Assembly: GCA_016214035.1 (NCBI GenBank)
Contig: JACRPF010000005.1
Location: forward strand, 496,001-560,000
Source of the DNA: Spirochaetota bacterium
GTDB taxonomy: Bacteria > Spirochaetota > Brachyspiria > Brachyspirales > JACRPF01
Reading direction: 5' to 3'
Length of the DNA: 64,000 bases
The notes under the pieces were generated by a model. It did no database searches, had not been told where the DNA came from, and worked only from the letters and a program-made list of their open reading frames with translations. Below, piece after piece: positions 2,424-31,400 of the stretch; position 1 is the stretch's first letter, and every line of letters begins with the position of its first letter. The translations under genes were made by a program, and so were the position numbers.

Positions 2424-4055
2424 TTACGCGGCGCCGAGCGATGCCATAACGCCGCACAACTCGTTATAAAGACGCCCCGCATTCTCAGCGGTGCGATTTG
2501 CGAGATAGCGTTTCATGTAGAACGGGACGGATTCCCATGCAAGTTCCAAACCTGTGAGCGCATCGGCATCCCGTTTATGTACGGCATCCATGATGTGCCC
2601 GCATTCGTCAAAGAGCCTCTGTTGCGCGATAATCTCCGGCACATGCATCGGAGATGGTTTTGTAACCGGCGGCAGCGGCGAACGGTCTCGCAGTGTTACG
2701 CCGGCGATACGTGCCGACGTGCTGTTCATGGTGAGCACCGGCACGGTCATATCAGCAACGAGCATTTCCATCTGACTGCGATACGCTTCGAGCGTCGCAC
2801 TTGTTGTCACGGGTTTTCCATCGTAATCGATTGCGGCGATGCGGTCGCCCTGTCTCCGTAAGTTGCGTGCGGTGAGCGGCGCGAGTTTATACGATGAGAC
2901 ATAATCGATCCGGTGCGATGCGCTTGCGGCGCTGTGCGTCTTTTCATCCTGAAAGCAGAAATCCGCGGCGGCGAGTATGATGCATGACGGGTGCAGGCTT
3001 GCGCCGGCTCGTACCGCCGACGAGAGCACGCTGCCCTCCATCGGGTATTCGGGTGTCTCCGGATAACAGAGGCGCTCCGCATGCATGCCGTGGGAAAAGT
3101 AATAGACGGGCCCGTTGTGCGCGATGGCCGGACCATAGGCGGTGTGCGTCGTGATGAGCGGTATGCCGGATTCATAACATGCGGTCAGATGCGAGGTGGC
3201 GTAGAATCCGCCGTCGGTGGAGATGACGGCATCCGGACGTATCCCCGCATGGAGCAGCGTCGCCGATGATGTCGCCGCAGCGAGCAGAAAAGCCCCCGAC
3301 GCTATCGTCCTCAGTTCTTCGATTACACGGTCTATCGATGGTCCGCCGCCGACGATGACAAGCGGCATGGTGCCGTTGAGGATTCCGCTGTATGCGGAGA
3401 ACGATGCGCCGCGGTTCCTTTTGAGATTATAGCCGATATTCGCCATCCAGCGCGGTGCGAAATAGTAAAACGTGGTCATCGACATGAATTTCCGCTCGAG
3501 AAATCCACTGAGTGCGCTGTCCAGTCCGCGAAAATATGCTTCGTCATAGAAACGGGCGCGTTGATTGGGGATGATCACCGTGGTGTCGGCGCAGTAGTCG
3601 GGAATATGCGCATCGCAGTGGTCAACGCAGCGTACAATGGATTCGCCGATAAGGAATACCGCGCGGTCGAGCCACGGGAACACCGCCGCCGACAGTACTG
3701 CCGCCGCGAGTTCTGCGGATTGTTCGATGATGATGATGCTCCTGCACTGCGGATATGCCGCGATCAAAGCATCGACCAGATGCAGTCCGCCCATGCCCGA
3801 AAAAACGGCATGCGTAATCGCGGTGCGGTTTGCGCAGCACGCATCGATACGTACACGCGCTTCCCTGAGCGGATCATACTGCGATACCAATGGACGTTTC
3901 CCGAATGAGACAAATACGGCGCCGTTGCAGAGCTTCGCCGAGAATACACTGCCGGATGTGCCGATGGATGCTGCTGCACCACGAACGACGTTGATCGCGT
4001 TCAGATTGCGTTGATTCTTTTTGAGGGCGGAGAGGTTCGTCTCAAGCGATGTCAT
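2424..4055 (-). CDS. DUF115 / MptE-like (Maf-type) protein
   Basis: 543 residues. The central region (VIVGGGPSID, then HAGIRPDAVISTDGG, then GSVLSSAVRAGASLHPSCII and a D-rich FCFQDEKTH segment) matches the 6-hydroxymethylpterin-diphosphokinase MptE-like domain (MAF_flag10, PF01973). Spirochaetes carry many such proteins; in other bacteria Maf proteins of this group transfer nonulosonic acid to flagellin. Its substrate here is unknown: no flagellin or sugar biosynthesis gene is adjacent. The start overlaps the stop of the preceding basic-tail gene by ATGA, so translation is likely coupled. It is the last gene of the minus-strand operon driven from 7399-7427. Confidence 0.75.
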   Translation of the reverse strand: MTSLETNLSALKKNQRNLNAINVVRGAAASIGTSGSVFSAKLCNGAVFVSFGKRPLVSQYDPLREARVRIDACCANRTAITHAVFSGMGGLHLVDALIAAYPQCRSIIIIEQSAELAAAVLSAAVFPWLDRAVFLIGESIVRCVDHCDAHIPDYCADTTVIIPNQRARFYDEAYFRGLDSALSGFLERKFMSMTTFYYFAPRWMANIGYNLKRNRGASFSAYSGILNGTMPLVIVGGGPSIDRVIEELRTIASGAFLLAAATSSATLLHAGIRPDAVISTDGGFYATSHLTACYESGIPLITTHTAYGPAIAHNGPVYYFSHGMHAERLCYPETPEYPMEGSVLSSAVRAGASLHPSCIILAAADFCFQDEKTHSAASASHRIDYVSSYKLAPLTARNLRRQGDRIAAIDYDGKPVTTSATLEAYRSQMEMLVADMTVPVLTMNSTSARIAGVTLRDRSPLPPVTKPSPMHVPEIIAQQRLFDECGHIMDAVHKRDADALTGLELAWESVPFYMKRYLANRTAENAGRLYNELCGVMASLGAA

Positions 4056-5497
4056 GCGGGAGGAGCGGCCGGCGGCAGTACTGTCTTTGTGCGTTTTCGC
4101 GGCGATACGCGTTTTACCTTTTTTTTCCCGGCAGCACGTTTGCTTTTTGCCTTTTTTGAACTTCGTTTTTTAACGATCTTCGCGGATTTTGCTTTTCCTG
4201 CCCGAAGCTTTTTGCGGCCCTTTGATTTTTTGGTCTTCTTTACGGCGCGTTTCTTTCTGCGTATGACGGCCTTTTTTTTCAATGCCGGGCGGCCTGCCCT
4301 TTTTTTACGTCGTTTTGCATACTTCCGTTTTTTGTTTTTCGCGGTTGCGCGTTTCTTTCTGCGCGGTTTTTTCTTCGGCACGGCTTTTTTACGGCGCTTC
4401 GGCTTCGGGAAATGCGAATAGATGGCTGACAGACAGCGCTGTATGCGGATGAGCGCCGCTTTCACCGGTTCGGGAAGCGCATCGGCCTTTACTTTGAGTT
4501 CAAATACGAGGAGTGCGCCGACGAGCCGTCCGTCAACAACAACGGGGATGAACCAGAACGTCCGTTCAGTCATCGTGCGTGAGCCTTTCTTGACCACATA
4601 CGTGAAGGGAAGCGGCGACGTGTGCTTCGGATTCACCGATTTGAAATTGCCGAACAGCTTCAGGTTGAAGCCCTGCGGTATGGCGGCTGTTGTGCTGTCG
4701 AAGGGAACGAGCTTGCCGTTTCCGTTGCGCCTGAGGAGCACATATCGTTTTATGCCCGCGGCGGATGCGGTCTGGCTGAACGCCCGCGCAATCGACGCAT
4801 CACCTTCGTATCCGGCAAGCAGCAGGCGTTCGTAATGCTCGGCACGTGAAGCGCGTATCGCGCTTTCCGGCGTCTTTTTTTCCGCGTCCAGCATGAGACC
4901 GGCGAGTGCGGCGACAAATGACAGCCTGAGCAGGTCCTCGTCATCGTACGGTTCGCCGTTTGTTTTTTTGCCGGTATAGATTATCGCCTGGACGGCGTGC
5001 GAGACAAGTACATAGGTGATGCGGCTGCCGTCGTGACGGGCGAGTTCCTCTGCGGATGCGCCCGGCAGACAGTCTGCATAGCGTTTTGTATATCGTTTAT
5101 CCCAGATGGAGAATGATTTCGCGATTTCACCGGGCAGTTCGGCAACTGTGTCCTTCTCCGATTTGCCGGCATCGCCGATGATGAATTTTCCGTTGCGGAG
5201 AATGTACATGCATACAGGTGACGCGGTGATGATTGCGGAAATGAAATGGAGCACCATGCGTTCGATGTCTTTCAGCGAGGGACGTTCGCGTGCCGCGTCC
5301 ACCGACGTCATGAAGGTACGGTATTCGTCAAGGATCTTTTTCTGACGGTTAAGATCGCCGATGCTGTCGCGCAGAAGCGATCCGATGAGCCATTCCTCGT
5401 GTGAGAACGGATTCCTGAAATCGTTTGATTGTAATTCGCCGATGACCGCGGATTTCCGCTCGTTCAGATAGGCATCCGCTTTCGCACGTAAACCCAT
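4052..5497 (-). CDS. GAF-like protein with a histone-H1-like basic tail
   Basis: 481 residues. The N-terminal 360 residues are soluble; two stretches, about 65-200 (ASPVCMYILRNGKFIIGD...EDLLRLSFVAALAGLMLD) and 215-350, look like GAF-type sensor folds, though no ligand residues can be named. From about residue 365 to 481 (roughly 4055-4405) the sequence is low complexity and extremely basic: I count 63 Lys+Arg in 117 residues, as KKK/RRKK/KRRKK blocks with Ala and Pro, resembling the C-terminal tail of histone H1 or bacterial Hc1/AlgR3-like proteins. It could bind nucleic acid or the acidic protein encoded 3 bp upstream. It overlaps the DUF115 start by 4 bp. Confidence 0.7.
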   Translation of the reverse strand: MGLRAKADAYLNERKSAVIGELQSNDFRNPFSHEEWLIGSLLRDSIGDLNRQKKILDEYRTFMTSVDAARERPSLKDIERMVLHFISAIITASPVCMYILRNGKFIIGDAGKSEKDTVAELPGEIAKSFSIWDKRYTKRYADCLPGASAEELARHDGSRITYVLVSHAVQAIIYTGKKTNGEPYDDEDLLRLSFVAALAGLMLDAEKKTPESAIRASRAEHYERLLLAGYEGDASIARAFSQTASAAGIKRYVLLRRNGNGKLVPFDSTTAAIPQGFNLKLFGNFKSVNPKHTSPLPFTYVVKKGSRTMTERTFWFIPVVVDGRLVGALLVFELKVKADALPEPVKAALIRIQRCLSAIYSHFPKPKRRKKAVPKKKPRRKKRATAKNKKRKYAKRRKKRAGRPALKKKAVIRRKKRAVKKTKKSKGRKKLRAGKAKSAKIVKKRSSKKAKSKRAAGKKKVKRVSPRKRTKTVLPPAAPPA

Positions 5498-5500
5498 ACG

Positions 5501-7006
5501 TTATACCCCGAATTTTTTGAGCAGCGATGTGTAAAGGTCGTAGAATTTCGATTCGGCAAACGTCCTGATCTTTTCCTCGGGGAGGTTCGCAAGCAGATCG
5601 TCAAAATAGACGAGGAGGTCTTTGAGCTGCGGATCGTCCTCGGCGGCTTTGCGCATGGCGGGTGTCACCTGCGGACGGCTGACGTTCTCTTTTTCGAATT
5701 CCTTCACCGCTCCCTGCAGATCGTCCTCGGAGAGCGTGCCGTCAAAGTCCGCCTTTTTCTTTTTCGCGGGCTTTTCTCCCGGTTCGACGGGGATCACCGG
5801 TACTTCATCAGCGATGACCGGTGTGATGTCGGGCAGTATTTCAGGCTCTTCTGAAAGCGCGGGTTTCTCGTCCACCTCCGCTTCCGGAGCCTCGATGACC
5901 GGGATCTCGTCTTCAGGGACCTCTATGCCGCTTTCTTTCATGATCTCTTTTTCGAAACTGAGCGATTCCAGTACGTTCGCCGAAGATTTCGCTTCCCGCT
6001 GCAGCTGCGCGATGTCGCCGATATCAAGCGGATCGCCAAGGTCCATCGGTGCTTCGTCCCGCCCGGCCGCCGGTTTTTCTTCATCAACTTCCTCTACGAG
6101 ATCTTCTTCCGGCTCATCGGTGAGCTTGATGTCGTCGGGTATGGGCGGCAGTTCATCGTCGGCGGCGGAAATATTCTCCATAACATCATCGGGTTCGGGG
6201 ATTTCCATTTCCTGCATTTTTTTCGTCAGGTCGTCGATGTCGTCCTTAATCGACGCTTCGTCAATATCTATGTCGAGGTCGGGAGTGATGGCAACAGGTT
6301 CGGGCTCACTTGCACGCTCGGTGGCGGCTTCTGCTTCGTCTTCAAGTATTTCGTTGAGCTCTTCACCGGAGAGCGCGATCACATCGTCCTCATCGGACAA
6401 CTTGAAAATATCGCCGTCATTTCCTGCGGCGCCGGACTCATCGGATTCGGCTCTATCGGACGGAACGGTGTCTTCAAGCGCTTCGTCACGCTCTGCGGCT
6501 GCATCGCCGGCTTCATCGCTCACATCGGCTAGTATGTTCTCAAGCTCGCCGTCGGAAAGCGATATAGTCTCGTCCTCTTCTTCTTTGAAAAAACCTTCAG
6601 CGGCGGGCGCGGTTGTGTCTTCAGCAGTATCGTCCGTTGTTTTGTCCGCTGTTTCGGCCAGGTCGCTCATGTCGGGTATGCTGTCAAGGTCTATGGAAAC
6701 ATCTTTGATATCATCAAGCGTGATCGTCTCGTCTTCGGCTGTCGTATCGCCGAGCATGCCGCCGGCGGATGCAGCGCTGACGTCTGCCGCGGCCGGTTCA
6801 CCGTCGTCGAGTTCGACCGCCGGTGAAGATTCAATGTCGTCGACCGTCGGCGCGAGCGTATGCTCTTCAGCCGCGGGTGCTTCTATGGTCTCTAAAGCAA
6901 TCTCGCTGTCACCGAGGATATTATCGAGCTCGGTTTCCGACAGTGAGATCTCATCGGTGTCATCGGATTCTTTGAAAAACCCTTCTTTTTCCTGTTCGCT
7001 CGCCAT
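5501..7006 (-). CDS. Very acidic repeat protein with spirochaete-type C-terminus
   Basis: 501 residues from the ATG at 7006; an upstream in-frame start (7048) is rejected because GAGAGG sits 5 nt before 7006. Most of the chain is Asp/Glu-rich and probably disordered. A short motif recurs three times: FFKESDDTDEISLSETELDN (near residue 10), FFKEEEDETISLSDGELENI (near 137) and IFKLSDEDDVIALSGEELNE (near 198). The last ~60 residues form a helical module (LKDLLVYFDDLLANLPEEKI, then RTFAESKFYDLYTSLLKKFG) that I recall at the end of many spirochaetal proteins. No enzyme motif is seen. It is tightly packed between the SLBB gene (25 bp) and the basic-tail gene (3 bp). Confidence 0.75.
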   Translation of the reverse strand: MASEQEKEGFFKESDDTDEISLSETELDNILGDSEIALETIEAPAAEEHTLAPTVDDIESSPAVELDDGEPAAADVSAASAGGMLGDTTAEDETITLDDIKDVSIDLDSIPDMSDLAETADKTTDDTAEDTTAPAAEGFFKEEEDETISLSDGELENILADVSDEAGDAAAERDEALEDTVPSDRAESDESGAAGNDGDIFKLSDEDDVIALSGEELNEILEDEAEAATERASEPEPVAITPDLDIDIDEASIKDDIDDLTKKMQEMEIPEPDDVMENISAADDELPPIPDDIKLTDEPEEDLVEEVDEEKPAAGRDEAPMDLGDPLDIGDIAQLQREAKSSANVLESLSFEKEIMKESGIEVPEDEIPVIEAPEAEVDEKPALSEEPEILPDITPVIADEVPVIPVEPGEKPAKKKKADFDGTLSEDDLQGAVKEFEKENVSRPQVTPAMRKAAEDDPQLKDLLVYFDDLLANLPEEKIRTFAESKFYDLYTSLLKKFGV

Positions 7007-7031
7007 TGTTTCCTCTCGGTGCTCTCCGCGA

Positions 7032-7349
7032 TTATTCTCGCGTTTCATACCCTGTCTTTTCCCATGACAGGCGATGCGGTATCATGATCGACTGATCCGC
7101 GGTAACCGGTGCGTTCAGATCGAAATCACGGGGAAGAAATCCCGCCGTGATGATGCCGCCGCATTGGGAGAAGACGTCTTTCCAGGTGCTCTGTGCCGGC
7201 AACCGGTATTCACCCGGGAACCGGACAGCGCCGTTTACGCGTACCGTCACCATGGCAACGGGGACACTGCGGTGCAGCGCGTCGGCGTTGAGGAATTTAA
7301 TGACAATTCCCGCCGCGAGAAAGACCAATGCGCAGCACCAAAACGCCAT
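7032..7349 (-). CDS. Membrane-anchored SLBB-like protein
   Basis: 105 residues from ATG 7349. One N-terminal membrane helix (MAFWCCALVFLAAGIVIKF) is followed by a single soluble-ligand-binding beta-grasp (SLBB-like) domain: VTVRVNGAVRFPGEYRLPA, then FDLNAPVTADQSIMIP. Such domains occur in polysaccharide export proteins and ComEA. Upstream in-frame starts at 7400 (ATG) and 7427 (TTG) are unlikely because they lie inside the -10 and -35 boxes of the only visible promoter. The ribosome site at 7349 is poor (GGAG almost abuts the ATG). First gene of a four-gene minus-strand operon. Confidence 0.6.
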   Translation of the reverse strand: MAFWCCALVFLAAGIVIKFLNADALHRSVPVAMVTVRVNGAVRFPGEYRLPAQSTWKDVFSQCGGIITAGFLPRDFDLNAPVTADQSIMIPHRLSWEKTGYETRE

Positions 7350-7398
7350 CTCCGTTTTAATTATCGGCTCCTCAGCGCGAATCGTTGATACAAAAATC

Positions 7399-7427
7399 AT
7401 TATATGCAGGAATATGGTGAAAGTCAA
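7399..7427 (-). promoter_or_regulatory. Promoter of the SLBB/acidic/basic-tail/DUF115 operon
   Basis: On the minus strand TTGACT (7422-7427), 17 nt, TATAAT (7399-7404), near-consensus. Predicted transcription start is near 7392. This places the ATG at 7400 upstream of the transcript and favours the start at 7349. Confidence 0.7.
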
Positions 7428-7516
7428 GCGAGCGGGATTAACGGCTGAAAAATGTCAAAAAATGCGAATCAAACCGTATATGACGCCATTTCGGAGAATT
7501 CCGCGTTCATGCGACT

Positions 7517-7544
7517 TTGCGTATTCCTTTTGGTGCTATATAAT
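7517..7544 (+). promoter_or_regulatory. Promoter of the A2M/pbpC/glycosidase operon
   Basis: TTGCGT (7517-7522), 16 nt, TATAAT (7539-7544). The -10 is perfect, the -35 moderate. It is divergent from the 7399-7427 promoter and sits 25 nt ahead of the ribosome site of the A2M gene. Confidence 0.5.
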
Positions 7545-7569
7545 GAAGACAGTATATTGGAGGTCGTTT

Positions 7570-10500
7570 ATGAAGATTCCGCGTTTTGTTCCATATATCA
7601 TATCTTTTGCGATCTATCTTTCAGGATTCATCTGTTCATCGGTTCTGCAGGGATCGGTGCCCGATGCGTTCTATCGCATGGTGCTTTCGCTTGCATTCGC
7701 TTTCGCGGAAACGATATCCGTGATATTTTATCTCCGTATTGCACTCACCCGTTTCGGCGGTTCGCGGGCATTCCTCCGCGGGTTCTATCTGTTTACCGGT
7801 TTGAACGCAGTCGCGCTGCTTGTTTCATCATTCACCGGGAATGCAGCCGTTTTTTTTATCATGCTTGCTGCTGCCTATGCTGCCGGAACCGTCATCTTCT
7901 TTGTGCGTCGTGTTGAAGGGAACGCTGCCAGACTGCGAATACCGTTTCTTGTGGTCATCATCACCGCTGCGGCGTTCTATATCGCCGCGTTCGTACTGGC
8001 GATTACGCTTCTGGAGGCCGAGGTCAGTCAGGCTGCCGGTTATGCAGTTGCGGCGGTCATCGCCGCGCTCGTGTTTACAGGCATCACCGCGCTTGTACGT
8101 CGTGCCGTGACAAAGTCATGGGGGCATATACATTATACATTCACGATATACGCCGCGGCAGCCGGCCTTTTCAATCTCGTCGGCGCATCGGCGAATGTCG
8201 CGTTCATGCCGACAAACCTGTATCAGACGGTCATGTTCTGCATCATTATGTTCGCCGCGTTTATCTTCACGCTGACACATGAGCTGCTTGTTGAATTTAC
8301 CGGTATTGCCGGAGCGGGGAAACAGCGCGCCGTACGGGCGACCAAAGAGCGTGCGGCGGGGATATCGGTTACGCTCGGGCCGAAGCTGACGGCGCTGAAA
8401 GCATCGCTCGCTGATGCGGCAGAGCTCATACGGGCGGCCGCGGACGATTTTTCTAAAAACTATGCGAAACGCTTTTTTGCGGCAATCGGTATTGCGGCAG
8501 CCGCAGCGCTGGTAATCGCCGGCGTATTTTTCATCCTGAATCTCGTCGGCGTGCACGTGGTGAGGTATACGCCGAAAGGCGAGATACAGTCGCTCCGGAC
8601 GGCGATCACCGCGGTTTTCAGTGACCCGATACAGCCGCGGGCTGCCGATATCGACAAACATATTTCCGGCCCATCGGAATATTCCAATGTGCGTCCGGTG
8701 AGCGATGTGGTGTTCATTAAACCGGGGGTTCAGTATTTCCGTATATCGCCGCCGGTAAAAGGCTCATATCGTATCGAAGGCGGCAGGCAGTTATATTTTA
8801 CACCGGACGAAGACCTTAAGCCGTCGATGAAATATACGGTGCAGGTGGATACCCGATGGCTTTCATCGGAAAAGAAGGTGGTCTTCGGCAAACGTTTTTC
8901 ATTCAATACGGAATATTTCAAGGTCACGGGTGCAAATATATTCTACACGCTTGATATGGTCAGGGACGTTGAGAAAGAAGCCGTTGTCGAAGTGAATTTC
9001 AATTATCCGGTCTCGCTTGAACAGCTCCGGAAATACGCAGCACTCCGCATCGACGGCGACGTGATGGACGCGACCGTGGAACCGTCCGCGATACCGACAC
9101 GATTTTATGTGCGTTCAACGAAAGTGGCGCGCAAGGATAAAACGGCGTCGGTGACGTTCACGGTGAAGAAGGATCTTTCTTGTATCGGCGGCGGAAGCGG
9201 ATTACGGAATGATTTTTCCGTGAGCACGATACTGCAGGAAAAACGCAAACTCGCCGTCAATGAAGTAAAGACATATCCGGTTGTCGGCACCACCTATGTC
9301 GCCGTCCGGTTCAACATGCCGGTGAGCGCACAGGCGGCCTCCGCCGGCATACGTGTGACGGATGAGAAAAAAGACGCGGTACCGTTCACGGTTGACGCCG
9401 AATACTGCTATGCGGTGCTCAGGGCTGATTTTAAACCGAATGCGAAATACACGGTAACCGTGATGAAAGGGCTCCGTTCGCGCTCGGGAGAGACGCTTGA
9501 GGAGAAGCGCGAGACAACGCTTTCCATCGCCGACATGCCCCCGGCGGTGCGGTTCACGTCGCCGGGCAAGGTGCTCCCGCTGCGCGGGAATCTCGATATC
9601 GAGTTCTACACGCTCAATCTCGACCGGTGTGCGGTGAAAATCGACAAGGTGTTCAGGAATAACGTCGTTCATTTCATACGGAACTACGAAAGCTCGGAAT
9701 ATACGAAGTCGCTGCTCTACAAAACCGTGGACGTTACCGACGGAAAACTGAACGACCGCGTGCCGGGTTTCATCAATCTCAGAAAATTCCACGCCATGGA
9801 TTACAAGGGGCTCTACAAGATACGCATCTCGGACCCGAAGCGTCACAGCAATTACGACGACCGGTATATTCTTATCAGCGATCTGGGTATTATCGCGAAA
9901 CAATCGGGCGATGATCTTATCGTCAGGGTGTATTCGATTATGGACCTGAAACCGCTGGCGAACATCGCCGTGAAGCTCATGAGTTATGAAAATCAGGAGA
10001 TGCGCGTGCTCAGAACATCTGCCGACGGCGAGGCGCTCATACGCGACTACAAGGTGAATGAACACAATTTCATCCCCTTTCTTGTGACAGCCGAGAACGG
10101 CGATGATTTTTCATTCGTCGATCTTTCGCGTCAGGAGATCAATCAGTCGCGTTTCAACACCGGCGGTGAAGGTTACGATGAACGCGCTGGCGGTACTGTG
10201 TCGGCGCTTCGCGGCATGAAGGCGTTTCTCACACCGGAGCGCGGCGTGTACAGGCCCGGCGAGGATGTGTTCATCACCGCCGTGGTGCGCAATGCCGATC
10301 AGTCGCTGCCGCCTCCGTTGCCCGTACAGCTTCAGTTTGACGACCCGACAGGTGAGCGTTTCAATGTTACACGGATGAAACTAACGGCTAACGGTATGCT
10401 GGTGTTCAAGGTGAACGTCCCCGGTTACGCGAAGACGGGCGAGTATGCGGCAACGCTGCGTGTCGGAGACGGTATCGTCATCGGAAAGACATCGGTGAAA

Positions 10501-13500
10501 ATTGAGGATTTCATCCCGGATAAAATAAAAGTGCGTATCACGGCGCCGGAAAAACGGCCGCTCCCGGGAGAACCCGTGACGTTCACGGTGAAGGCCAATC
10601 AGCTTTTCGGACCGCCGGCATCGGGACGACGCGTGGTCACCGAAGTCCGCTTCGATGCGCGCGAATTCTCGCTCAGCGCATTCAAGGACTATTCTTTTTC
10701 CGACAACAGCAGGAATTATGGCGGAGAGACATTCCGTCTCGGTGATGAAAAACTGGACGAGAACGGCGAGCGGTCATACTCGGTGGAAGTTCCCTCCACC
10801 GCACTGCCGCCGTCGGCACTCAACGCGAAGATATATACGCTCGTATACGATGAGGGCGGCAGGCCTGTGGGCGAGATGAAAAGCGTTCCCGTAGACCGCT
10901 ATTCGCTGTACTACGGTGTGGCGGCGGCAAAAAAAGATGTACATCTGAAAGGCGTACCCATCGGCGTCTCGTATATCGCCGTAACGCCGGCGGGGACAAA
11001 GACGAACGCTTCTGATGTTTCCATTGTCGTCAAGCGGCGGATTTATTATACGATATTCAAGCGATACGGCATAACCCGTGAAGGCTATGAAAGCGAAAGT
11101 TTTGAGGAAGTCGTCTTCAATACGACGGTCACTATTAACGGCGAGGGAAGTTTTTCGTTTGTGCCGAAAGACGCGGGTACGTACACCGTTATCGTCGGAA
11201 ACGACAGCGCCATGCGCACAAGCACGGATGTCTATGTGCAGGGCGACGGCGTGGAAACACTCGATATGGGACGATCGCACGATATCGTCATCGAATTCAA
11301 CAAGGAAAAATATGCGCCCGGTGAAACGGCAGCGGTTACCGTGAAGTCTCCGATACCGGGACGTCTCTTCTTCTCCGTGGAGCGTGAAAAAGTTCTGTTC
11401 TCGCGTTCGGTGATGCTCACTGACAACAAGGCGACGGTTGAATTCCCTGTCGCGGCAGACTATACGCCGAATGTCTATGTGCATGCATTCGTTGTGCGCA
11501 CGCCGGATGAGGACAAAAAAGACCTGCCGATGACATCGCTCGGTATACGCAGCCTCGATATCGCGCCGGGCGATAAGCGCATGGTGATCGCGCTTGACGC
11601 TCCGAAGGCGGTGCGTTCACGTGACGGTGTTACGGTGAACCTGAAGCTGCCGGCGGGCGGACCGTCAGGCGGCGTGGTGCTCACGGCCGTCGACGAGGGG
11701 ATTCTTCAGATAACGCAGTTTGAAACGCCGAAACCTTTCGATTTCTTCTATGCAAAACGAAGACTGGAAACCCGTCTCTTTACGCTGTTCGATGCGGTGC
11801 TTCCCAATGTGCGGGCTACCGTGTCCGCGATCGGCGGCGGGGACATGGATAATATGTTCGGCGGCGAGAAATCGCGCCGGCACGTCAATCCGGTAGCCGG
11901 GAAACGGGTGCGGTCGGTGGCGCTCTGCTCGGGCGTGCTCATCCCCGACGCGCAGGGAAATGTGTCGTACCGGTTCACACTGCCGGATTTTAACGGTGAA
12001 CTCCGCGTTATGGCAATTGCCGCGGATCGCGACCGCTACGGTTCCCGTGCGGCTGCGGTGACGGTAGCGGACCCCATCATCGCCACGGCGTCGCTGCCGC
12101 GTGTGCTTGCGCCGCGCGACACCTTCGAGGTGCCGGTGTATGTATATAACAAGACCGGTAATCCGGGAACATTCCGCGTGTCGCTGTCGGCGGCGGGCCC
12201 GATGAAAGTGAAAAGCGCGCCGTCACAGACCGTTGAACTCGGCAATGAGAGCGAAAAGCGCGTTGTCTTTTTCTGCGACGCGCTCGAAGACGCGGGACTG
12301 TCCGAGTTTACCGTCACGGCCGAAGGCAACGGCGAACAGATACGCACGAAGACCGAAGTCCCCGTGCGGCCTGCGGTGATGATGACAACGCTGAGCAAAG
12401 AAGGAAAGATAGAATCCGGCAAAAGCGTTTCCATCGATGTCCCCGGCGGGTTCATTCCGTACGGACAGCGGGTGCGCTTTTCCGTTTCACATCAGACGCT
12501 CACGAAATATCTGCGTTCACTTGACTATCTCGTGCGCTATCCGTACGGCTGCGCCGAGCAGGTGAGCTCCGCGGTGTTCGGTCTTATGTATTACCGTGAG
12601 CTTCTGCCGCTCGCGGGACTACTCGGTGAACGCGCAGGCCAGGCTGACTACTATATCGAAGAAGGGATACGGAAACTGGAAGGGCAACAGCTTTCCGACG
12701 GCAGTTTCACCTATTGGACCGGCGGAAATAACGGCGACGCGGCACTGTCGCGCTATGTGGCGCATTGTCTCATCGAGGCGTCAAGGCTCGGGCATGAGGT
12801 GAGTCCCGAGGTCATCGCGAAAATAAAAAAGATGACCGCTTCGAAATCGATAAAGCGCGGACGGCTTGACCGCAGCGAACAGCATTCCTGGGAGGAGATG
12901 AACACCTATAATCTGTATCTCCGCGCGCTTCTGGGCGAACCCGACCGCGAGATGATGCAGCACCTTAAGGAACGCAAACTCAAGGATATGCAGTACGTGG
13001 ACCGCTGTCTCCTTGCCATGGCTTTTGCCGCGTCCGGTGACAGCGCTAACGGGAACGCGGTGCTTCCCGATTCGTTTACGCTCAAGTATTTCCCGCGTGC
13101 TCTCGGCGGCGATTACGATTCGCCGGTAAAACGCCAGGCGATATATCTCCGGGCGCTTGCCGAAGTATCGAGCAACGACGCGCGCATCAAGCCGCTCGTC
13201 AAAGAACTGGAATCGCGCATGGTGAACGGTCATTTCGGTTCCACGCACGAGAATGCACTTGCGCTTACCGCATTGGCGCGCGCGTACGGCAGCGAGGCAG
13301 CGGTGCCCGTCAGCGCCGACCTCATCGTGAACGGCAGAGTATACGGTAGCGCGTTCAGCGGAGCGGCGCTTGAAGACAATACGCTTTCAGGAAAAACCGT
13401 AACGCTCCTCAATAAAGGGAAAGTACCGCTCTACTATTCGCTCATCGCGGAAGGTACGCAGCAGGCGAAGACCGGCGGTGCAGTGGAGAAAGGCATCAAG

Positions 13501-13920
13501 GTTGAGCGTGAGTACTTTACTGAAGACGGCAAAAAGCTCAATCTCACGAGCGTGAAACAGGGTTCGCTCATCGTTGCAACGCTTACGCTGAAGACCATGC
13601 GGAACGATATCGACAATGTGGTCATCGTGGATATATTTCCGGCGGGGTTTGAGATGGAAAATCCGCGCATACGTTCACGCGGCAGGCTAGCCTACGACCC
13701 GCCGCACACGTTCACGCCGGTGTATGAGGATATACGCGACGACAGAATGCTGCTCTTTACCGGACGCGTCAACGGCGAGGTGAAATATTCCTACACGATG
13801 CGCGCGGTGAGTGCCGGCGAATTCGTTGTGCCCGATATTTCCGCCGAGGCTATGTATGATCCCGATGTACGTTCCATCTCGGGCGACTCGGGGAAAGTTA
13901 TCATAGTCGGAGTGCGATAG
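7570..13920 (+). CDS. Alpha-2-macroglobulin family protein with polytopic membrane domain
   Basis: 2116 residues. The start at 7570 is fixed by GGAGG 7 nt upstream; the open frame to 7147 has no such site and crosses the promoter. Residues 1-327 hold about nine membrane helices, a first cluster of eight (roughly residues 8-235), a charged linker of about 60 residues, and one more (about 301-327). The rest is periplasmic beta-rich MG/Ig domains, the A2M bait/MG region and the thioester segment YGCAEQ (C1661, E1663, Q1664), followed by the alpha/alpha-toroid TED. Bacterial A2Ms are thought to trap proteases that breach the envelope and normally have only a lipoprotein signal. The gene is 12 bp before pbpC, the classic partnership linking protease trapping with cell-wall repair. 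Confidence 0.9.
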   Translation: MKIPRFVPYIISFAIYLSGFICSSVLQGSVPDAFYRMVLSLAFAFAETISVIFYLRIALTRFGGSRAFLRGFYLFTGLNAVALLVSSFTGNAAVFFIMLAAAYAAGTVIFFVRRVEGNAARLRIPFLVVIITAAAFYIAAFVLAITLLEAEVSQAAGYAVAAVIAALVFTGITALVRRAVTKSWGHIHYTFTIYAAAAGLFNLVGASANVAFMPTNLYQTVMFCIIMFAAFIFTLTHELLVEFTGIAGAGKQRAVRATKERAAGISVTLGPKLTALKASLADAAELIRAAADDFSKNYAKRFFAAIGIAAAAALVIAGVFFILNLVGVHVVRYTPKGEIQSLRTAITAVFSDPIQPRAADIDKHISGPSEYSNVRPVSDVVFIKPGVQYFRISPPVKGSYRIEGGRQLYFTPDEDLKPSMKYTVQVDTRWLSSEKKVVFGKRFSFNTEYFKVTGANIFYTLDMVRDVEKEAVVEVNFNYPVSLEQLRKYAALRIDGDVMDATVEPSAIPTRFYVRSTKVARKDKTASVTFTVKKDLSCIGGGSGLRNDFSVSTILQEKRKLAVNEVKTYPVVGTTYVAVRFNMPVSAQAASAGIRVTDEKKDAVPFTVDAEYCYAVLRADFKPNAKYTVTVMKGLRSRSGETLEEKRETTLSIADMPPAVRFTSPGKVLPLRGNLDIEFYTLNLDRCAVKIDKVFRNNVVHFIRNYESSEYTKSLLYKTVDVTDGKLNDRVPGFINLRKFHAMDYKGLYKIRISDPKRHSNYDDRYILISDLGIIAKQSGDDLIVRVYSIMDLKPLANIAVKLMSYENQEMRVLRTSADGEALIRDYKVNEHNFIPFLVTAENGDDFSFVDLSRQEINQSRFNTGGEGYDERAGGTVSALRGMKAFLTPERGVYRPGEDVFITAVVRNADQSLPPPLPVQLQFDDPTGERFNVTRMKLTANGMLVFKVNVPGYAKTGEYAATLRVGDGIVIGKTSVKIEDFIPDKIKVRITAPEKRPLPGEPVTFTVKANQLFGPPASGRRVVTEVRFDAREFSLSAFKDYSFSDNSRNYGGETFRLGDEKLDENGERSYSVEVPSTALPPSALNAKIYTLVYDEGGRPVGEMKSVPVDRYSLYYGVAAAKKDVHLKGVPIGVSYIAVTPAGTKTNASDVSIVVKRRIYYTIFKRYGITREGYESESFEEVVFNTTVTINGEGSFSFVPKDAGTYTVIVGNDSAMRTSTDVYVQGDGVETLDMGRSHDIVIEFNKEKYAPGETAAVTVKSPIPGRLFFSVEREKVLFSRSVMLTDNKATVEFPVAADYTPNVYVHAFVVRTPDEDKKDLPMTSLGIRSLDIAPGDKRMVIALDAPKAVRSRDGVTVNLKLPAGGPSGGVVLTAVDEGILQITQFETPKPFDFFYAKRRLETRLFTLFDAVLPNVRATVSAIGGGDMDNMFGGEKSRRHVNPVAGKRVRSVALCSGVLIPDAQGNVSYRFTLPDFNGELRVMAIAADRDRYGSRAAAVTVADPIIATASLPRVLAPRDTFEVPVYVYNKTGNPGTFRVSLSAAGPMKVKSAPSQTVELGNESEKRVVFFCDALEDAGLSEFTVTAEGNGEQIRTKTEVPVRPAVMMTTLSKEGKIESGKSVSIDVPGGFIPYGQRVRFSVSHQTLTKYLRSLDYLVRYPYGCAEQVSSAVFGLMYYRELLPLAGLLGERAGQADYYIEEGIRKLEGQQLSDGSFTYWTGGNNGDAALSRYVAHCLIEASRLGHEVSPEVIAKIKKMTASKSIKRGRLDRSEQHSWEEMNTYNLYLRALLGEPDREMMQHLKERKLKDMQYVDRCLLAMAFAASGDSANGNAVLPDSFTLKYFPRALGGDYDSPVKRQAIYLRALAEVSSNDARIKPLVKELESRMVNGHFGSTHENALALTALARAYGSEAAVPVSADLIVNGRVYGSAFSGAALEDNTLSGKTVTLLNKGKVPLYYSLIAEGTQQAKTGGAVEKGIKVEREYFTEDGKKLNLTSVKQGSLIVATLTLKTMRNDIDNVVIVDIFPAGFEMENPRIRSRGRLAYDPPHTFTPVYEDIRDDRMLLFTGRVNGEVKYSYTMRAVSAGEFVVPDISAEAMYDPDVRSISGDSGKVIIVGVR

Positions 13921-13932
13921 ACGACGCGGACT

Positions 13933-16278
13933 ATGCGATTACCTGAACATTATCGGGACATTATCCGTTCGTCGCCGGCGCATCTCAGGCGTTTCGCCGT
14001 GCGGTTCAGTACGGAACTCGTGTCCGTTTCCGCATTCGTCGTACTGGCGATTGCCTGTCTTACACTGGTTCCGCTTCCGCTGGAGCGTATTGAAAATGAT
14101 TTTTCCACGGTGTATACGGACAGGAGCGGTGCGCTCATGCGTATCGCGCTTTCACCGTCGGGAAAATACCGGATTCGAATTGCGGATAAGGATATATCGC
14201 CGTTTCTCAGAAACGGTATTGTCGCGTATGAAGACCGGTGGTTTTATCTTCACCCGGGCGTGAATCCGGTGTCTATTGCGCGTGCTGTCGTACTTAACGT
14301 GAGCGCACGCCGCGTAATTTCCGGCGGATCCACCATAACGATGCAGCTTGCGCGCATGCTTGAACGGCGCCCGCGCACGTTCGGCGCAAAGGTCATCGAA
14401 GCGTTCCGCGCGCTGCAGCTTGAACTCAGGTACAGCAAACGGGAACTCCTCTCGATGTATCTCAACAGCATACCGATGGGCGGTAACATCGAAGGCGCGG
14501 GAGCCGCCGCATATTTCTATTTCGGCAAGAACGCCGGTGAACTGAGCGCGCGTGAGTCCGCGCTCCTCATCGGCATACCGAATTCGCCCAACAGGAATAA
14601 GCCGGATTCGGATGATGATACGGCGCGCGTGGCGCAGAAAGTCGTATCACGAATTCCCGCGGCGCTCGGCATCACGGGAACGAATATGCAGACTGCCGTG
14701 TCGGCCGGCATGCATGCGAATGTGTTCCATGCGCCGTACCTCATCGAATCGGGCCGCCTGTCTGGCGTGTCATTGCTCGCGCGAACGACGATCGATCTGC
14801 CGCTGCAGGGACACTGCGAGGAAACGCTGCGACGTCATGCGGCTGCGAACGAACGCGACGGTATTCATAACGGCGCAATAATTGTCTGCGAGAACCGCAC
14901 CGGGAACGTGCTCGCGTATGCGGGCAATGTGGATTATAACGACAGCGAACACAGCGGCAAAATCAACGCCGCGGCGCTGCCCCGTTCGCCGGGTTCAGTG
15001 TTGAAACCGTTCATCTATGTAAAGGCGGTGAGCGGTTCACTCATCACGCCGAAATCGATGCTTATGGACATACCCCGCTCGTTCGACGAATATTTTCCGC
15101 GCAATTATGACAAGGGTTCGCGCGGTCTCGTGAGCGCCGAGTTCGCGCTCATCAACTCGCTCAACATCCCCGCGGTGCGGCTTGAACAGGAATTGAACGG
15201 AGCGGGACTCCTTGCCGTACTCCGTGACGGCTGTCCGTCAGCCGTTGACGCTGCTGAACGCGCCGGGCTTACGAGAGCGCTCGGTGGATTCGGTATTTCC
15301 CTTGAAGACGCGGTTGCATTGTACGCGGCGCTCGCGCGCGGCGGGCGTTTTGCTCCGCTCAGATATGTTGACGGCGGGCGTCTTGACGGAAAACAGATAA
15401 TGGACGAAGCTTCGTGCTATATCGTAAGCGAGATGCTTTCAGAATATCAGCGCACCGATCTTCCGCACGCGTGGGAATTCTCTCCGCATCTGGCGAAGGC
15501 CGCGTTCAAGACCGGAACGTCGTTCGGACTCCGCGACGCATGGTGCATCGGCTATAATCCCGACTACACCGTGGGCGTATGGCTCGGCAACGTGAACTCG
15601 CGTGACGCGCAGCGGCTTATCGGCGGGACGAAAGCGGCACCGCTTTTCTTCGATATCTTCAACTACATCACCCGCGATTCCGACGCATGGTACAAGCGCC
15701 CCCCGTCGGTAGCCGAACGGAAGGTGTGCGCGGTGAGCGGCATGAAGCCGGGCCGGCAGTGCAGAACTATGACTGATGACCTTTACATACCCGGGATATC
15801 GCCCGAAAGTGAATGTGATGTGCATCGGGTTATCCGCGTGAGAAAAAGCGATGGACGCGAGGTGTGCGCATACTGCATGACGCGGGATGCTGCCGCATAT
15901 GAGGACAGAACCGTACTATGGTATCGGCCCGAGGTTGCCACCTATATGCGTTCGCGCGGACTGTCGATTGCACAGGCGCCTGAGCATAACGATGCATGCG
16001 AACATTATTTTGTGCGCGGCAGACCGGCCATCACCGAGCCTTCAGCCGGCGCCGTGTATGCGATACGCGAAACGCTGCCGCTTGCGGTGCAGAAAATACC
16101 GCTCAAAGCGAACGTCGGCGGTGATGCCGGCACGGTATACTGGTTCATCGGCTCACTGCTCGTGGCGGCGGGGCGGCCCGACGAGCGGTTTTTTCTTACG
16201 CCCAAACGCGGCTCATGGAAGATATCGGTGGTTGACGCGAAAGGACGAAGCGATTCGGTGACGATAAAAATATATTGA
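13933..16278 (+). CDS. pbpC: Penicillin-binding protein 1C
   Basis: 781 residues. One N-terminal membrane helix (about 36-52). GT51 glycosyltransferase domain with catalytic E100 in YEDRWFYLHPG and GGSTITMQLARM. Transpeptidase domain with S355-V-L-K358, S409-L-N411 and K526-T-G-T. A C-terminal BiPBP_C-like beta domain (about residues 690-781) is diagnostic of the 1C class. It polymerises and, at least by motif, crosslinks peptidoglycan in the periplasm; PBP1C proteins are poorly active transpeptidases in known cases. Placed 12 bp after the A2M gene and 17 bp before the glycosidase gene. Confidence 0.95.
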   Translation: MRLPEHYRDIIRSSPAHLRRFAVRFSTELVSVSAFVVLAIACLTLVPLPLERIENDFSTVYTDRSGALMRIALSPSGKYRIRIADKDISPFLRNGIVAYEDRWFYLHPGVNPVSIARAVVLNVSARRVISGGSTITMQLARMLERRPRTFGAKVIEAFRALQLELRYSKRELLSMYLNSIPMGGNIEGAGAAAYFYFGKNAGELSARESALLIGIPNSPNRNKPDSDDDTARVAQKVVSRIPAALGITGTNMQTAVSAGMHANVFHAPYLIESGRLSGVSLLARTTIDLPLQGHCEETLRRHAAANERDGIHNGAIIVCENRTGNVLAYAGNVDYNDSEHSGKINAAALPRSPGSVLKPFIYVKAVSGSLITPKSMLMDIPRSFDEYFPRNYDKGSRGLVSAEFALINSLNIPAVRLEQELNGAGLLAVLRDGCPSAVDAAERAGLTRALGGFGISLEDAVALYAALARGGRFAPLRYVDGGRLDGKQIMDEASCYIVSEMLSEYQRTDLPHAWEFSPHLAKAAFKTGTSFGLRDAWCIGYNPDYTVGVWLGNVNSRDAQRLIGGTKAAPLFFDIFNYITRDSDAWYKRPPSVAERKVCAVSGMKPGRQCRTMTDDLYIPGISPESECDVHRVIRVRKSDGREVCAYCMTRDAAAYEDRTVLWYRPEVATYMRSRGLSIAQAPEHNDACEHYFVRGRPAITEPSAGAVYAIRETLPLAVQKIPLKANVGGDAGTVYWFIGSLLVAAGRPDERFFLTPKRGSWKISVVDAKGRSDSVTIKIY

Positions 16279-25410: not shown

Positions 25411-28400
25411 ATGAAAATAAAAATTCCAAACATTGCCAACAATGATGTAGCAAGTCTTGAAATAGAGCCGCCGTTGCTCGCGGAGCTTTTCGGACATGAT
25501 CAGTTTGCTAAATATGCGCGTGTGCTTGCGGACGAGCATGAGGTTGACACAGCACCGGGAGCCGAACTGCTGCTTTCCCGGCTTGCGGAAAACAAGACGG
25601 TGATACGCGAGGCGCACAGGATAGTCTCCCGGGCGCTTGAGAATAACAGGCAGATTTCGCCGGCGGCCGAATGGCTCCTGGACAACTATTATGTCATTGA
25701 AGAGCAGATACTGCTTGCGGAACAATATCTCCCGAAACGGTACAGCAGGCAGCTGCCGCGTTTGAAAACAGGCAAGCATGAGGGATTCCCGCGGGTATAT
25801 GATATTGCATTCGAGCTGGTCTCACATACCGACGGCAGAATCGATATAGGGAATCTGTCGCATTTTATTGAAAAATATCAGACGGTCCAGCACCTTTCTC
25901 TGGGGGAGCTCTGGGCAATGCCTATTATGCTCAGAATGGCCCTTATCGAAAATCTTCGCCGTGTTGCCCATCGTATTGCGCTGCGCCGTCTTGACCGTGA
26001 TTCGGCCATAACCTGGGCGGAACGTTTCCTGGCCTCGGCGGGAGCGAACGCCAAGGAGCTGATAACGGTACTTGCCGATTTCGCCCGTGAATCTCCAAAA
26101 CTGTCGCATCCGTTCCTCGCCGAATTGACCATGCGCATACACGGACAGCATCTTTCACTGGGACTGGTGATCAACTGGCTGGAACGTCAGCTCGCTGAGG
26201 ACGGACAGACCATCGAGCAGATACTGCAGGCTGAGAGTCAGGATCAGGCTGTCCATCAGGTGTCGATAGGCAACAGCATCACCAGTCTGCGGGCGCTCAG
26301 TGAGATAGATTGGAAGCCTTTTGTCGAAACCCAGAGCGCAACGGAGAAGGAACTTGAGAAGGATCCATCGGGCATATACAAAATGATGGATTTCCGCACC
26401 CGCGACGCGTACCGGCACGTGGTGGAAAAACTGTCAAGGTACAGTGGAAAAAAGGAAGAGGATATCAGCGCCGAAGCGGTTAAGCTTGCGGTAAGACGGA
26501 AGGGCAGAAAAGGGGTGGCCCCCCGGGAATACCACGTGGGCTATTTTCTGGTGGACAAAGGCCTTGCGGAGCTTGAGCGTATCATACTTCCACGGTACCC
26601 GTTTCGGGATGCCGCCCGCCGGCTGTTCGGGAGAAATCCGTTTCTCATCTATCAGGGACTTGTTACGGCTGCCTCGTTGGTATTGGCCGGAGTCACGGCG
26701 GCCGGTGTAATATCGCATACCATGTACGGCAGACTGCCGCTTACGGTGATCGCATGTCTCATCGTTGTGCTGGCCTCCAGATCCGCTATCACCATCATCA
26801 ATTGGGTTATCACCCTGTTTGTCACGCCGCAAGCACTGCCGCGGATGGATTTTTCCAAAGGCATTCCGGACAATTGCAGGACACTGGTGGCGGTTCAGAC
26901 CATGCTTACCGGTACGTCCTCAATTGATGACCTGCTGTCGGGTCTGGAAATATATCATGTAGCAAACCGCGATCCGAATGTGGTATTTACACTGGTGGCC
27001 GACTTTGCAGACGCAGACCGGGAGATGACGGATAACGACGGTCCGCTGCTTGACTATGTGAAAAACGGTATTGAAGCGCTCAATAAAAAATATGCAGCGG
27101 AAGACAACCGGATCTTTTTCCTGCTGCACCGGAAACGCGAGTGGAATCCGTCAGAGCGGAAATGGATGGGGTATGAACGGAAGCGGGGCAAGGTCAATGA
27201 CCTCAATGCATTTCTCCGCGGCAAACCGGGGCGGATCATCGCCGCGTCCGGGGAACATCGGAAACTGCTGCAGACCGTCCGTTATGTTATCACCCTTGAT
27301 TCCGATACGCAGCTTCCGCCGTCCACCGCATGGAAACTTGCAGGGACGATGGCGCATCCGCTCAACACTCCCCTGATCGACGAAAAGACCGGGTGCGTGG
27401 TGCAGGGATACGGTATCATGCAGCCGAGGATATCCATGAGTCTTGTCGGCTCTTCGGCTTCCCCTTTCTCAAAGCTTTTTTCCGGAGATGTGGGAATTGA
27501 CCCCTATACACACGAGATATCCGATGTCTATCATGATATGATCGGGACAACGCCTTTTCTCGGGAAGGGAATTTATGATGTCGATGCGTTCAGTGCTGCA
27601 GCCGGTTCCCGGTTCCCCGAAAATACAATACTCAGCCACGACCTCATCGAGGGGCTGCACGCGCGATGCGGTTATATCAACAATGTCGACCTTATTGAGG
27701 ACCATCCGGCGCAGTATCTCGTGGATGTCAGCCGCAGAAGCCGATGGATTCGCGGGGATTGGCAGATCATGCGATGGCTCTTTCCCCGTGTCCCCGATGC
27801 TTCCGGTAAAAAGACACGAAACGTACTGTCAACAACCGCGCGGTGGATGATATTCGATAATCTGCGGCGCAGTATTATTCCGCCGGCTTTTTTTCTTCTG
27901 CTTCTGATCACCGGAACGCTGTTTACCGCCGGTTTTTTCTGCAAAGCAGCCGTTATACTTTCACTTTTTTATCTGCCGGTATTTCTGCAGACGTTGTGGG
28001 GGATGTGCAATAAGCCCGCGCGGGTTGCATGGCATTACCATTTCGGACACGTACTGAGCCAGCGGCTGCAGCAGTCGGTGCGGGATACGCTCATGGTTGT
28101 TTTTCTGCCGTTCGAGGCGTTCATAGGTATCGATGCGATTCTTAAGGCGTGGTGGCGGAAGACGATAAGTCACCGAAATATGCTTGAATGGCAGACCGCG
28201 CGGAGCGCCGCACACGGTGCAAAAACGGGCCTGTCTTCGGTGTTGAAGCGGATGTGGGTCAATCCGGTTACAGGTATAGTATGCCTGGTATTTGTATATT
28301 GCAGAGAGGAAATATCTTTTTCAGCAACCGCGGCCGCCGGGTTGATCTGGATATTGGCTCCGTTCATTGCGTGGTTCATCAGCAGACCGGTGAAAAATAT

Positions 28401-31400
28401 TCATGTGCGGTTTACCGCGGAACAGCAGGCGTTTTTAAGGAACATATCCAGAAGGACATGGCGGTATTTTGAGACGTTCGCGGGACCCGAGCACAACTGG
28501 CTGCCTCCCGATAATGTCCAGGAAAAGCCCGAATTCCAGATTGCGGCGAGGACATCGCCCACGAACATCGGACTCTATCTGCTTTCGATACTCGCCGCCC
28601 GCGACTTCGGCTATATCAGTACGACATCCGCGCTGCACCGTATACGGAATGCGTTTTCTTCCATGGGACATATGGAACGTTTTCGCGGACATTTTTTAAA
28701 CTGGTACGAGACAAAGAGCCTTCAGACGTTGCGGCCTCGATATGTTTCCACCGTAGACAGCGGGAATCTGGTCGGGTCGCTGATAGCGCTGCGCGGGGGG
28801 CTTCTTGAGATGAAAGCCGAACCCCTGCTCTCGGAGCAATGGCTCCCGGGCCTCAGAGATACCGCCCGCGCGCTACTGGATGAGATGAGACGCATCGCAC
28901 GGGATATGCCGGTCATAAATGCCGAACAACTCCGCGCGTGCGAAGCATTCGCCGGCGACATTGCCGCTTATTCCGGTCCGGCGGGTACCGTGGAAGACCT
29001 GTACCGTTTTCTATCCGGCGTCATTGCAGAACGGGCGGCCGTCAGGATTGATCTCATCGCGAGCGCTGACGTACGATCGTGGATTGCCGCGGTTCAGACG
29101 CAGTGTGAAGATATCATCGGAGAAATAGTCCGGCTTGCGCCATGGCTCTCAGGAAATTGTTTTTCCGGGACGGCGTTGGAACGGGCCGGCAGTATGCTTG
29201 ACCCCGGCGAGTTGAACGATCTGCTCACGGATGTGCACCGTTCAGATACGCTTGTCAGGCTTGCGGCGCTCAGCATGAAGTGGTCGGCACGTTTCGATTC
29301 CTGGATCGAGGATGTCTCCGGCGGGGATGGTTCGCCGGAACAGGTTTCGGAGATGCGTGCCTGGATACAGGATGTCCGCAGGCATATTGCCGATGCCAGT
29401 ATGTACGCCGGCAACAGGATCAGTGAGCTTGAACAGCTAGCTGAAGCGTGCAGTGAGTTTTCCGATTGGGATATTGAATTCCTTTTTCAGCAGGACAAGA
29501 AGCTTTTTACCATCGGATACAATATCGAGAATCGCAAGGCGGACAACAGTTACTATGATCTTTTTGCCTCGGAGGCGAGGCTCGGCAGTTACATCGGTGT
29601 TGCGCAGGGCCGCATCCCGCAGGAGCACTGGTTTCTGCTTGGCCGCCAGCAGGCGAAGGTAGAAACAGGTCCGCCAACGCTGCTTTCATGGAGCGGATCG
29701 ATGTTCGAGTATCTGATGCCGAATTTGATCCTGCCGGTGTATGAGGGAACGCTGACCGACTATTCGTGCCGCAATGCCGTACAGCAGCAGATCATTTACG
29801 GGAACGGACGTACAGTCCCATGGGGAATATCCGAATCGTCATATAATCTCATCGACGTACACAAGACCTATCAATACCGCGCGTTCGGAGTTCCGGCGCT
29901 CGGTCTTATGCGCGGGCTGGCGGAGGATCTGGTGGTGGCTCCCTATGCATCGATCATGGGACTCACCAGCATGGCGTCAGAGGCGTGTCTGAATCTGCAG
30001 CGGCTGGCCGCTGACGGGATGCTGGGCGGCATGGGCATGTACGAGGCGGTGGATTATACCGCCATGCGCGTCCCTTCCGGTCAGGATCGCGTCATCGTTC
30101 AGAGTTATATGGCGCATCACAGCGGCATGGGACTCCTTGCGCTCGCGTCGGTGCTGCTGAACAGCCCGATGCAGCGGCGTTTTATTTCTGACCCTGAGAT
30201 GCGGTCGGCGCTGCTCCTGCTGCAGGAACGTATTCCTCCGGTTCTTGATGACGCTTCGATCATCGCGCATCCCCAGGCGGGAGTCTCCAATAAGACCGAA
30301 GCCCAGATCAGAGAATCGATTACGCGTGTGTATGCAAATGTCAATGCAGACGTGCCGCGCGTACAGCTGCTCAGCAACGGACGCTATAATGTGATGATCA
30401 CCAATGCCGGGGGCGGATACAGCAGATGGCACGGTATTGACCTGATACGCTGGCGCGAGGATGTGACCAGAGACAATTATGGATTATACTGTTATATCCA
30501 GGACGTTGAAACGGGTGCGTTCTGGTCCGCAGCATATCAGCCGGCATGCGTTCGCCCCGAACGCTATGAAGCCATATTCTCGCAGGCATTGGGTGAATTC
30601 CGTTGCGTGCACAACGATATTGAGATATACACCAAGATATCAGTCTCTCCCGAGGATGACGTTGAGATACGGCGCATGACGGTCAGCAATCTTTCGTCCG
30701 AAGAACGGACACTCGACCTGACCAGCTATGCTGAAGTAGTGCTTGCCGAATCACTGGCGGAAATTTCTCACCCCGTATTCAACAGCCTTTTTATTCAGAC
30801 CGAACTGATCCCCGATAAATCAGCCATCATATGCACGCGCCGCCGGCGTTCGGACGAAGAGGCGGTTCCCTGGATGTTCACGAGCATGGTGGTGAATAAC
30901 GGACAGCCCGTACGGGGATGTTCGTTCGAAACCGACCGCAACCGGTTCGTCGGCAGAACACGCGGTACGATGCACCCGGCCGCGATGGACAGTGTGGGGC
31001 GGCTTTCAAACACCTCCGGCATGGTGCTCGATCCGATTGCATCCATCAGACGCAGGATCGTCATCCCCGCCGGCGAATCCCTCATGGTGGATCTTATCAT
31101 GGGGGCGTCGTCCTCACGTGAACAGGTGCTCCTGCTCATCGATAAATACCGTGATTACCGGCTGGCCGAACGCGTTTTTGATATCGCGTGGACTCACAGT
31201 CAGGTGCTGCTGCAGCATCTCCGGTCAACCGAGGCCGATGCCCAGTTGTTCGGAAGACTTGCAAGTTCGATAATATATCCGAACGCCCGGCACCGTGCCG
31301 GGACCACGGTCATCACGCAGAACAGCAAAAATCAGTCGTCGTTATGGCGGTACGGTATTTCCGGTGACCTGCCGATCATGCTCATCCAAACGACGGACGC

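Follow-up and report, generated by a model that had tools for sequence, protein, structure and literature searches.

The flagellin glycosyltransferases of the Maf/PseD type, such as Aeromonas Maf1, are among the described systems closest to the locus analysed here. In the part of the published account drawn on here, flagellin is a cytoplasmic substrate of Maf, which acts on it ahead of the chaperone (PMC4065374). In T. denticola the FlaB flagellins bear a glycan that is essential for filament assembly, according to the portion of the report that we use (PMC9481697), and the flagellin of B. burgdorferi is reported not to be glycosylated, a statement taken from a title cited in PMC6236881. Like the Maf/PseD systems, our locus has a downstream gene belonging to family PF01973, of which a treponeme paralogue matches PseD; unlike them, it also encodes an acidic protein and a GAF-domain partner, neither of which is mentioned in the part of the Maf paper considered here (PMC4065374). 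The partner invites a second comparison, with tandem-GAF regulators (PDE2/5/6, cyanobacterial adenylyl cyclase, DosS and the phytochromes), with which it shares two GAF folds in series; in contrast to these regulators it has no output domain, and carries instead an N-terminus beginning MGL and a polycationic tail. We describe the family to which the acidic protein belongs, its linkage to MptE/Maf-like genes, and what the conservation of the pair across the Spirochaetota says about the relation between its two oppositely charged members.

The window, by which we mean the whole 64-kb stretch of Spirochaetota DNA that was analysed, encodes on its minus strand a unit of four genes, in the order SLBB, acidic, basic and MptE-like, all of which overlap or nearly do so. 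The first (7032–7427) has an SLBB match under the Pfam curated cut-off (E 1.5e-4) and overlaps the start of the gene for the acidic protein (515 aa; 5501–7048), for which an internal ATG at 7006, 14 codons after the ATG at 7048, is an alternative start, either being possible. Only 3 bp separate the stop codon of the acidic gene (5501–5503) from the ATG (5497) of the gene for its basic partner (481 aa; 4052–5497), and the stop codon of the latter overlaps the start of the MptE/Maf-like gene (2424–4055; PF01973, E 1.9e-20). The initial annotation had reported an extremely Asp/Glu-rich chain encoded 3 bp upstream of the basic protein, and this is confirmed, 160 of the 515 residues being Asp or Glu; it had missed the overlaps of the basic gene's stop with the MptE-like start and of the SLBB gene with the acidic gene's start. 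The same four genes occur in unchanged order in a second genome of the same family (G001), where the SLBB orthologue in the same place gives E 1.3e-25. Near that operon lies an ORF, parts of which resemble PseG and a methyltransferase (L168:8224–9963), its matches being far under the curated cut-offs. Elsewhere in the window, a bacterial alpha-2-macroglobulin gene (7147–13920, plus strand) is divergent from the operon and is followed by a gene for a bifunctional penicillin-binding protein with BiPBP_C (13933–16278, plus strand); two giant ORFs, of 2926 aa (25411–34191) and 2930 aa (36719–45511), lie on the plus strand, and no tRNA was found in the 64 kb by ARAGORN.

The acidic protein consists of an acidic, repeat-bearing region followed by a C-terminal helical domain; with 160 Asp/Glu and 40 Lys/Arg it has a calculated charge of about −121 at pH 7.4, and the acidic chain is probably disordered. 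No Pfam, NCBIfam or PHROGs family matches the protein. Its last 75 residues (5504–5728, minus strand), which include the conserved helical domain of the last ~45, align over 21 spirochaetes with Y, P, F and Y invariant, and a profile built from this alignment, in which the window sequence is itself one of the 21 rows, matches the window genome with E 1.6e-22. The profile matches 226 of 296 Spirochaetota genomes, mostly with one copy each; a genome of 1.1 Mb (G081) also encodes a member. The domain model shows three helices (pTM 0.41), with a pLDDT of about 85 for residues 41–70, and no convincing PDB match was obtained by sequence, nor by Foldseek with this model of pTM 0.41 as query. Acidity extends to all loci, net charge per residue ranging from −0.10 to −0.37 with a mean of −0.25 (n=100, two loci with acidic fragments of at most 150 aa being left out of the acidity and motif counts). 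The acidic protein represents an unannotated Spirochaetota family marked by its C-terminal helical domain and by the private motif described below; in the open-access literature, subscription journals being outside the scope of the search, we found nothing on this family or on the acidic/partner pair.

The partner begins with the signature MGLRAKA (5477–5497, minus strand), and its body is made up of two tandem GAF domains. The structure model (residues 1–360, from three sequences) has a mean pLDDT of 53.5, and its top Foldseek rows are tandem GAF regulators. In this low-pLDDT model the first domain (about residues 72–208; 4874–5284, minus strand) aligns to the GAF-A domain of DosS by VIA-align with Z 11.3 (rmsd 3.1, 114 residues aligned), and the second (about residues 209–360; 4418–4873, minus strand) to phytochrome and other GAF domains with Z 10.2–11.7, the best match (Z 11.7) having an rmsd of 3.2 over 129 aligned residues. 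By sequence, Pfam GAF_2 is matched weakly (E 0.012, 16.2 bits against a cut-off of 28.6), in the second domain. Proteins encoded in the same place in other lineages give GAF matches over the curated cut-off in six of the ten scanned, one of the ten entries (L035) having come from the wrong strand and so not being that partner, and five of the six also match GGDEF; the partners at L034, L046 and L050 match neither. The string GG[DE][EF] occurs in just one of 64 partners (L047), so the partner GGDEF domains look inactive. A first search of the genome contigs with the head of the partner found no relative, and an alignable partner occurs in only three of the 31 genomes of the order (the window genome, G001 and G024). 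Beyond the order, orthology was assigned by position, N-terminus and GAF domains rather than by full-length similarity. In six loci (L044, L047, L053, L072, L088 and L134) a GLLxRA form of the N-terminal signature recurs near the N-terminus, with two to five repeats.

Conservation of the downstream MptE-like gene suggests a connection of the pair with flagellin modification. The window gene clearly belongs to PF01973 (73.8 bits, cut-off 34.6), membership of which does not by itself prove a flagellin glycosyltransferase; against the NCBIfam PseD model (NF050051), which has a cut-off of 670 bits, it scores 17.2 bits (E 0.0015), and a paralogue linked to the acidic gene of a T. denticola-like genome, also below that cut-off, scores 92.7 bits (E 2.2e-26). 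At L046, which comes from a T. denticola-like genome, a GGDEF-domain gene (11142–12572) follows the two MptE-like genes. Loci were sampled by picking 20 individually and adding the best 80 of 204 relatives from a scan of the collection; of the 102 available, 12 with under 4 kb downstream were left out of the synteny count, and most of the sample is from treponemes. On this basis an MptE-like gene lies on the same strand within 3.5 kb downstream in 80 of 90 loci, an MGL partner being present in 47 of these and absent from 33.

The same linkage appears between genomes. Across the 296 Spirochaetota genomes, with PF01973 in 251 and FliM in 269, the acidic domain and PF01973 were found together in 225 and both were absent from 44, the domain alone occurring in 1 and PF01973 alone in 26; these counts ignore ancestry, and few independent losses stand behind them. 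The association of the acidic domain with FliM is weaker (both 216, domain only 10, FliM only 53, neither 17), and all 33 genomes positive for FliM and negative for PF01973 lack the acidic domain. The PF01973-negative genomes that we list, 20 of 45, come from families f37, f49 and f44; the f37 genomes among them, which are small and FliM-positive and which we infer to be Borreliaceae, have neither PF01973 nor the acidic domain. FliS immediately precedes the acidic gene at L039 and L040, and at L036 the acidic gene lies upstream of FliL-FliM-FliY. We place moderate confidence in the link of the pair to flagellin.

Ten of the 90 loci lack a nearby MptE-like gene, and several of these adjoin ATP synthase genes; the acidic gene and partner follow such genes at L042 and L047 by Pfam, and L048, L049 and L053 are alike by their listed neighbours. 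This context fits no flagellar role, and it leaves room for the view that the pair serves signalling in general, as a module comprising GAF and a degenerate GGDEF domain, to which MptE is linked incidentally and which is not dedicated to flagellin. The GAF and GGDEF matches of partners in other lineages, together with the inactive look of those GGDEF domains, agree with such a module. The co-occurrence with PF01973 (225 of the 226 genomes that encode the domain) and the FliS and FliM contexts nevertheless speak against it, and we consider it unlikely.

The basic partner ends in a polycationic tail (residues 365–481; 4055–4405, minus strand), for which the composition given in the initial annotation, 63 Lys/Arg in 117 residues, is exact. 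These comprise 43 Lys and 20 Arg with Ala and Pro and no Asp or Glu, and the calculated charge is about +62. The best 60-residue segment of the protein has a net charge of +38; among the 56 window ORFs of at least 150 aa, the runner-up reaches +21. Used as query against the whole genome, the tail recovered itself alone, with no second copy. Such a charge outlier, unique in its genome, is not a matter of chance. Hc1 and AlgP are presumably the bacterial proteins whose H1-like lysine-rich tails are closest in kind. Compared by composition, these tails and that of the window are alike in being Lys/Ala/Pro-rich, of low complexity and C-terminal; the window tail differs in sitting on a GAF protein and in not being conserved in its family. 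In the closest relative (G001, 36% identity) the tail of the partner is 40 residues long with 14 Lys/Arg and 4 Asp/Glu, in G024 it is 42 residues long with 15 Lys/Arg and 5 Asp/Glu, and the L035 partner has a moderately basic stretch; among 64 adjacent partners, that of the window is the only one with a long polycationic tail.

The tail might be an appendage for nucleic acid or another polyanion that places the GAF protein at the nucleoid or ribosome and has nothing to do with the acidic neighbour. Its resemblance to H1-like tails in Lys, Arg, Ala and Pro content and in its freedom from acidic residues would suit this function, as its uniqueness in the genome and its shortness or absence in relatives do not, and we think the proposal improbable. 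We regard the tail as a lineage-specific addition, and have low confidence in any role proposed for it. In the window lineage the tail might touch its acidic neighbour, or DNA, as a feature of that lineage alone.

Because the coupling of the two genes had been taken to suggest that their products bind each other, perhaps as a complex or condensate driven by charge, it is important to establish which properties of the pair are conserved. A partner was called as an ORF of at least 100 aa that begins M-G-[L/F] and whose start lies −10 to +60 bp from the stop codon of the acidic gene, so that L132 (MSLLEKA) and other partners starting elsewhere were counted as absent, and one of the 102 loci, with under 400 bp downstream, was left out. 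Of 101 loci, 64 have such a partner directly downstream of the acidic gene, the spacing being −1 to +2 bp in 54 of them; the partner begins with MGL in 63 of the 101 eligible loci and its N-terminus is mostly MGL-x-x-[KR]-A. Within the smaller set of the 20 loci picked individually, L003 and the window, 17 of 22 have the partner. The partners themselves are seldom strongly basic: net charge is negative in 38 of the 64, between 0 and +15 in 23 and above +15 in 3, the distant ones being recognised by their location, N-terminus and GAF domains. The acidic protein of the window ranks 72nd of 99 in acidity, and net charge per residue hardly differs between acidic proteins that have a partner (−0.248) and those that lack one (−0.262).

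Adjacency and acidity are therefore general features, common across loci, and the long tail is a local one. Of the inference drawn from the coupling, the part that survives is association: tight gene coupling is conserved (64/101), so a functional, perhaps physical, association is plausible, whereas its charge-driven part is unsupported. Similarly, when conservation is examined as the initial annotation had suggested, the adjacency and the acidic chain persist and the basic pattern is mostly lost. The circumstance named there as contrary to a charge pair, that orthologues of one member lack the charged region while the genes stay adjacent, is the one that we observe, and a polycation and polyanion with both patterns conserved in adjacent pairs is not. 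Charge-driven pairing as the reason for adjacency was rejected, since partners are mostly net negative and acidity is independent of the partner. For the window itself, a polyelectrolyte complex or condensate in which the acidic chain binds the tail and keeps it off DNA has in its favour that charges of about +62 and −121 are encoded with 3 bp between them and that residual basic tails are present in the two other alignable partners (14/40 Lys/Arg in G001 and 15/42 in G024). Set against the net negative charge of most adjacent partners, the unexceptional acidity of the window protein, the equal acidity of proteins without a partner, and a conserved motif and helical domain that charge does not explain, this makes such a complex unlikely. 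As the genes stay paired while the basic tail is mostly missing, an accessory module, probably one with a tie to flagellin modification, is the better reading.

The acidic region carries a private motif, DDETIALTGDELDNIL, present in 93 of 100 acidic proteins. Its pattern is [DE]D[ED]xIALTGDELDNIL, in one to seven copies per protein; 133 copies were observed in the 100 proteins, compared with 0.1 on average when the sequences were shuffled 20 times. The window protein has three copies of the ALTGDELDNIL type, all on the minus strand and given here with their flanks: DTDEISLSETELDNIL (6905–6967), EDETISLSDGELENIL (6521–6583; E 1.1e-7 in its own genome) and EDDVIALSGEELNEIL (6335–6397). In ten genomes searched with a motif profile, all matches below E 0.2 fall inside the acidic gene, one of the ten (G024) giving no significant copy. 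An obvious explanation, that the motif binds the partner protein, was rejected, because the motif is present independently of the partner gene (57 of 62 acidic proteins with a partner and 35 of 37 without), which argues that it binds something else. One partner protein (L047, 5096–7336) itself bears a copy of the motif (score 10.6). The look of the repeats, L[ST]xxELDNIL, superficially recalls LSQSEIDALL of FliM from the same genome, a segment that we take to bind CheY, and the shared pattern L[ST]xxE[LI]xxhL might suggest that the motif stands in for the CheY-binding N-terminus of FliM/FliY and makes the acidic protein a CheY sponge. This identity was rejected, and the sponge is highly improbable: the motif matrix gives scores of −18 to −29 to FliM/FliY N-termini and of more than 9 to the motif copies, the two differ at the most conserved positions, 14 (N) and 15 (I), and the motif profile matches FliM in none of the ten genomes at E below 0.2.

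The reading that we favour, tentatively, is that an acidic scaffold and a GAF sensor are attached to Maf-type flagellin modification, the tail being an add-on of one lineage. The acidic protein would be a cytosolic scaffold specific to the Spirochaetota, made up of an acidic chain, one to seven motifs and a small helical end domain. Its usual downstream partner would be a fast-evolving GAF protein whose N-terminus, MGL-x-x-[KR]-A, is fixed; in several lineages its GAF domains appear to be followed by a degenerate GGDEF domain. Most likely, the pair serves the neighbouring MptE/Maf-type glycosyltransferase in modifying flagellin in the cytoplasm before export. The motif and helical domain of the scaffold may hold the enzyme, the flagellin or the chaperone, and the GAF partner may supply signal input to the modification. 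In the window lineage the partner would have gained its polycationic tail as an electrostatic add-on, which could make the partner bind the scaffold or nucleic acid more tightly and would not be what holds the pair together. A bolder and more doubtful form of this proposal is that a private, essentially single-copy, multivalent scaffold organises cytoplasmic flagellin glycosylation by means of its own linear motif and helical domain in most spirochaetes outside two or three families, with the GAF partner gating the process in response to a small molecule and the tail tuning it in some lineages.

What is new here is a set of accessory proteins at a Maf-type locus. The acidic proteins form an unannotated, widespread and essentially single-copy spirochaete family whose motif, in the genomes tested, is confined to its members, and the family is strongly linked to MptE/Maf-like genes in a phylum in which, for T. 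denticola filaments, the flagellin glycan is described as essential in the part of the report cited above (PMC9481697). The lineage-specific polycationic tail of the window partner would be a natural experiment on the addition of an electrostatic appendage to an existing pair.
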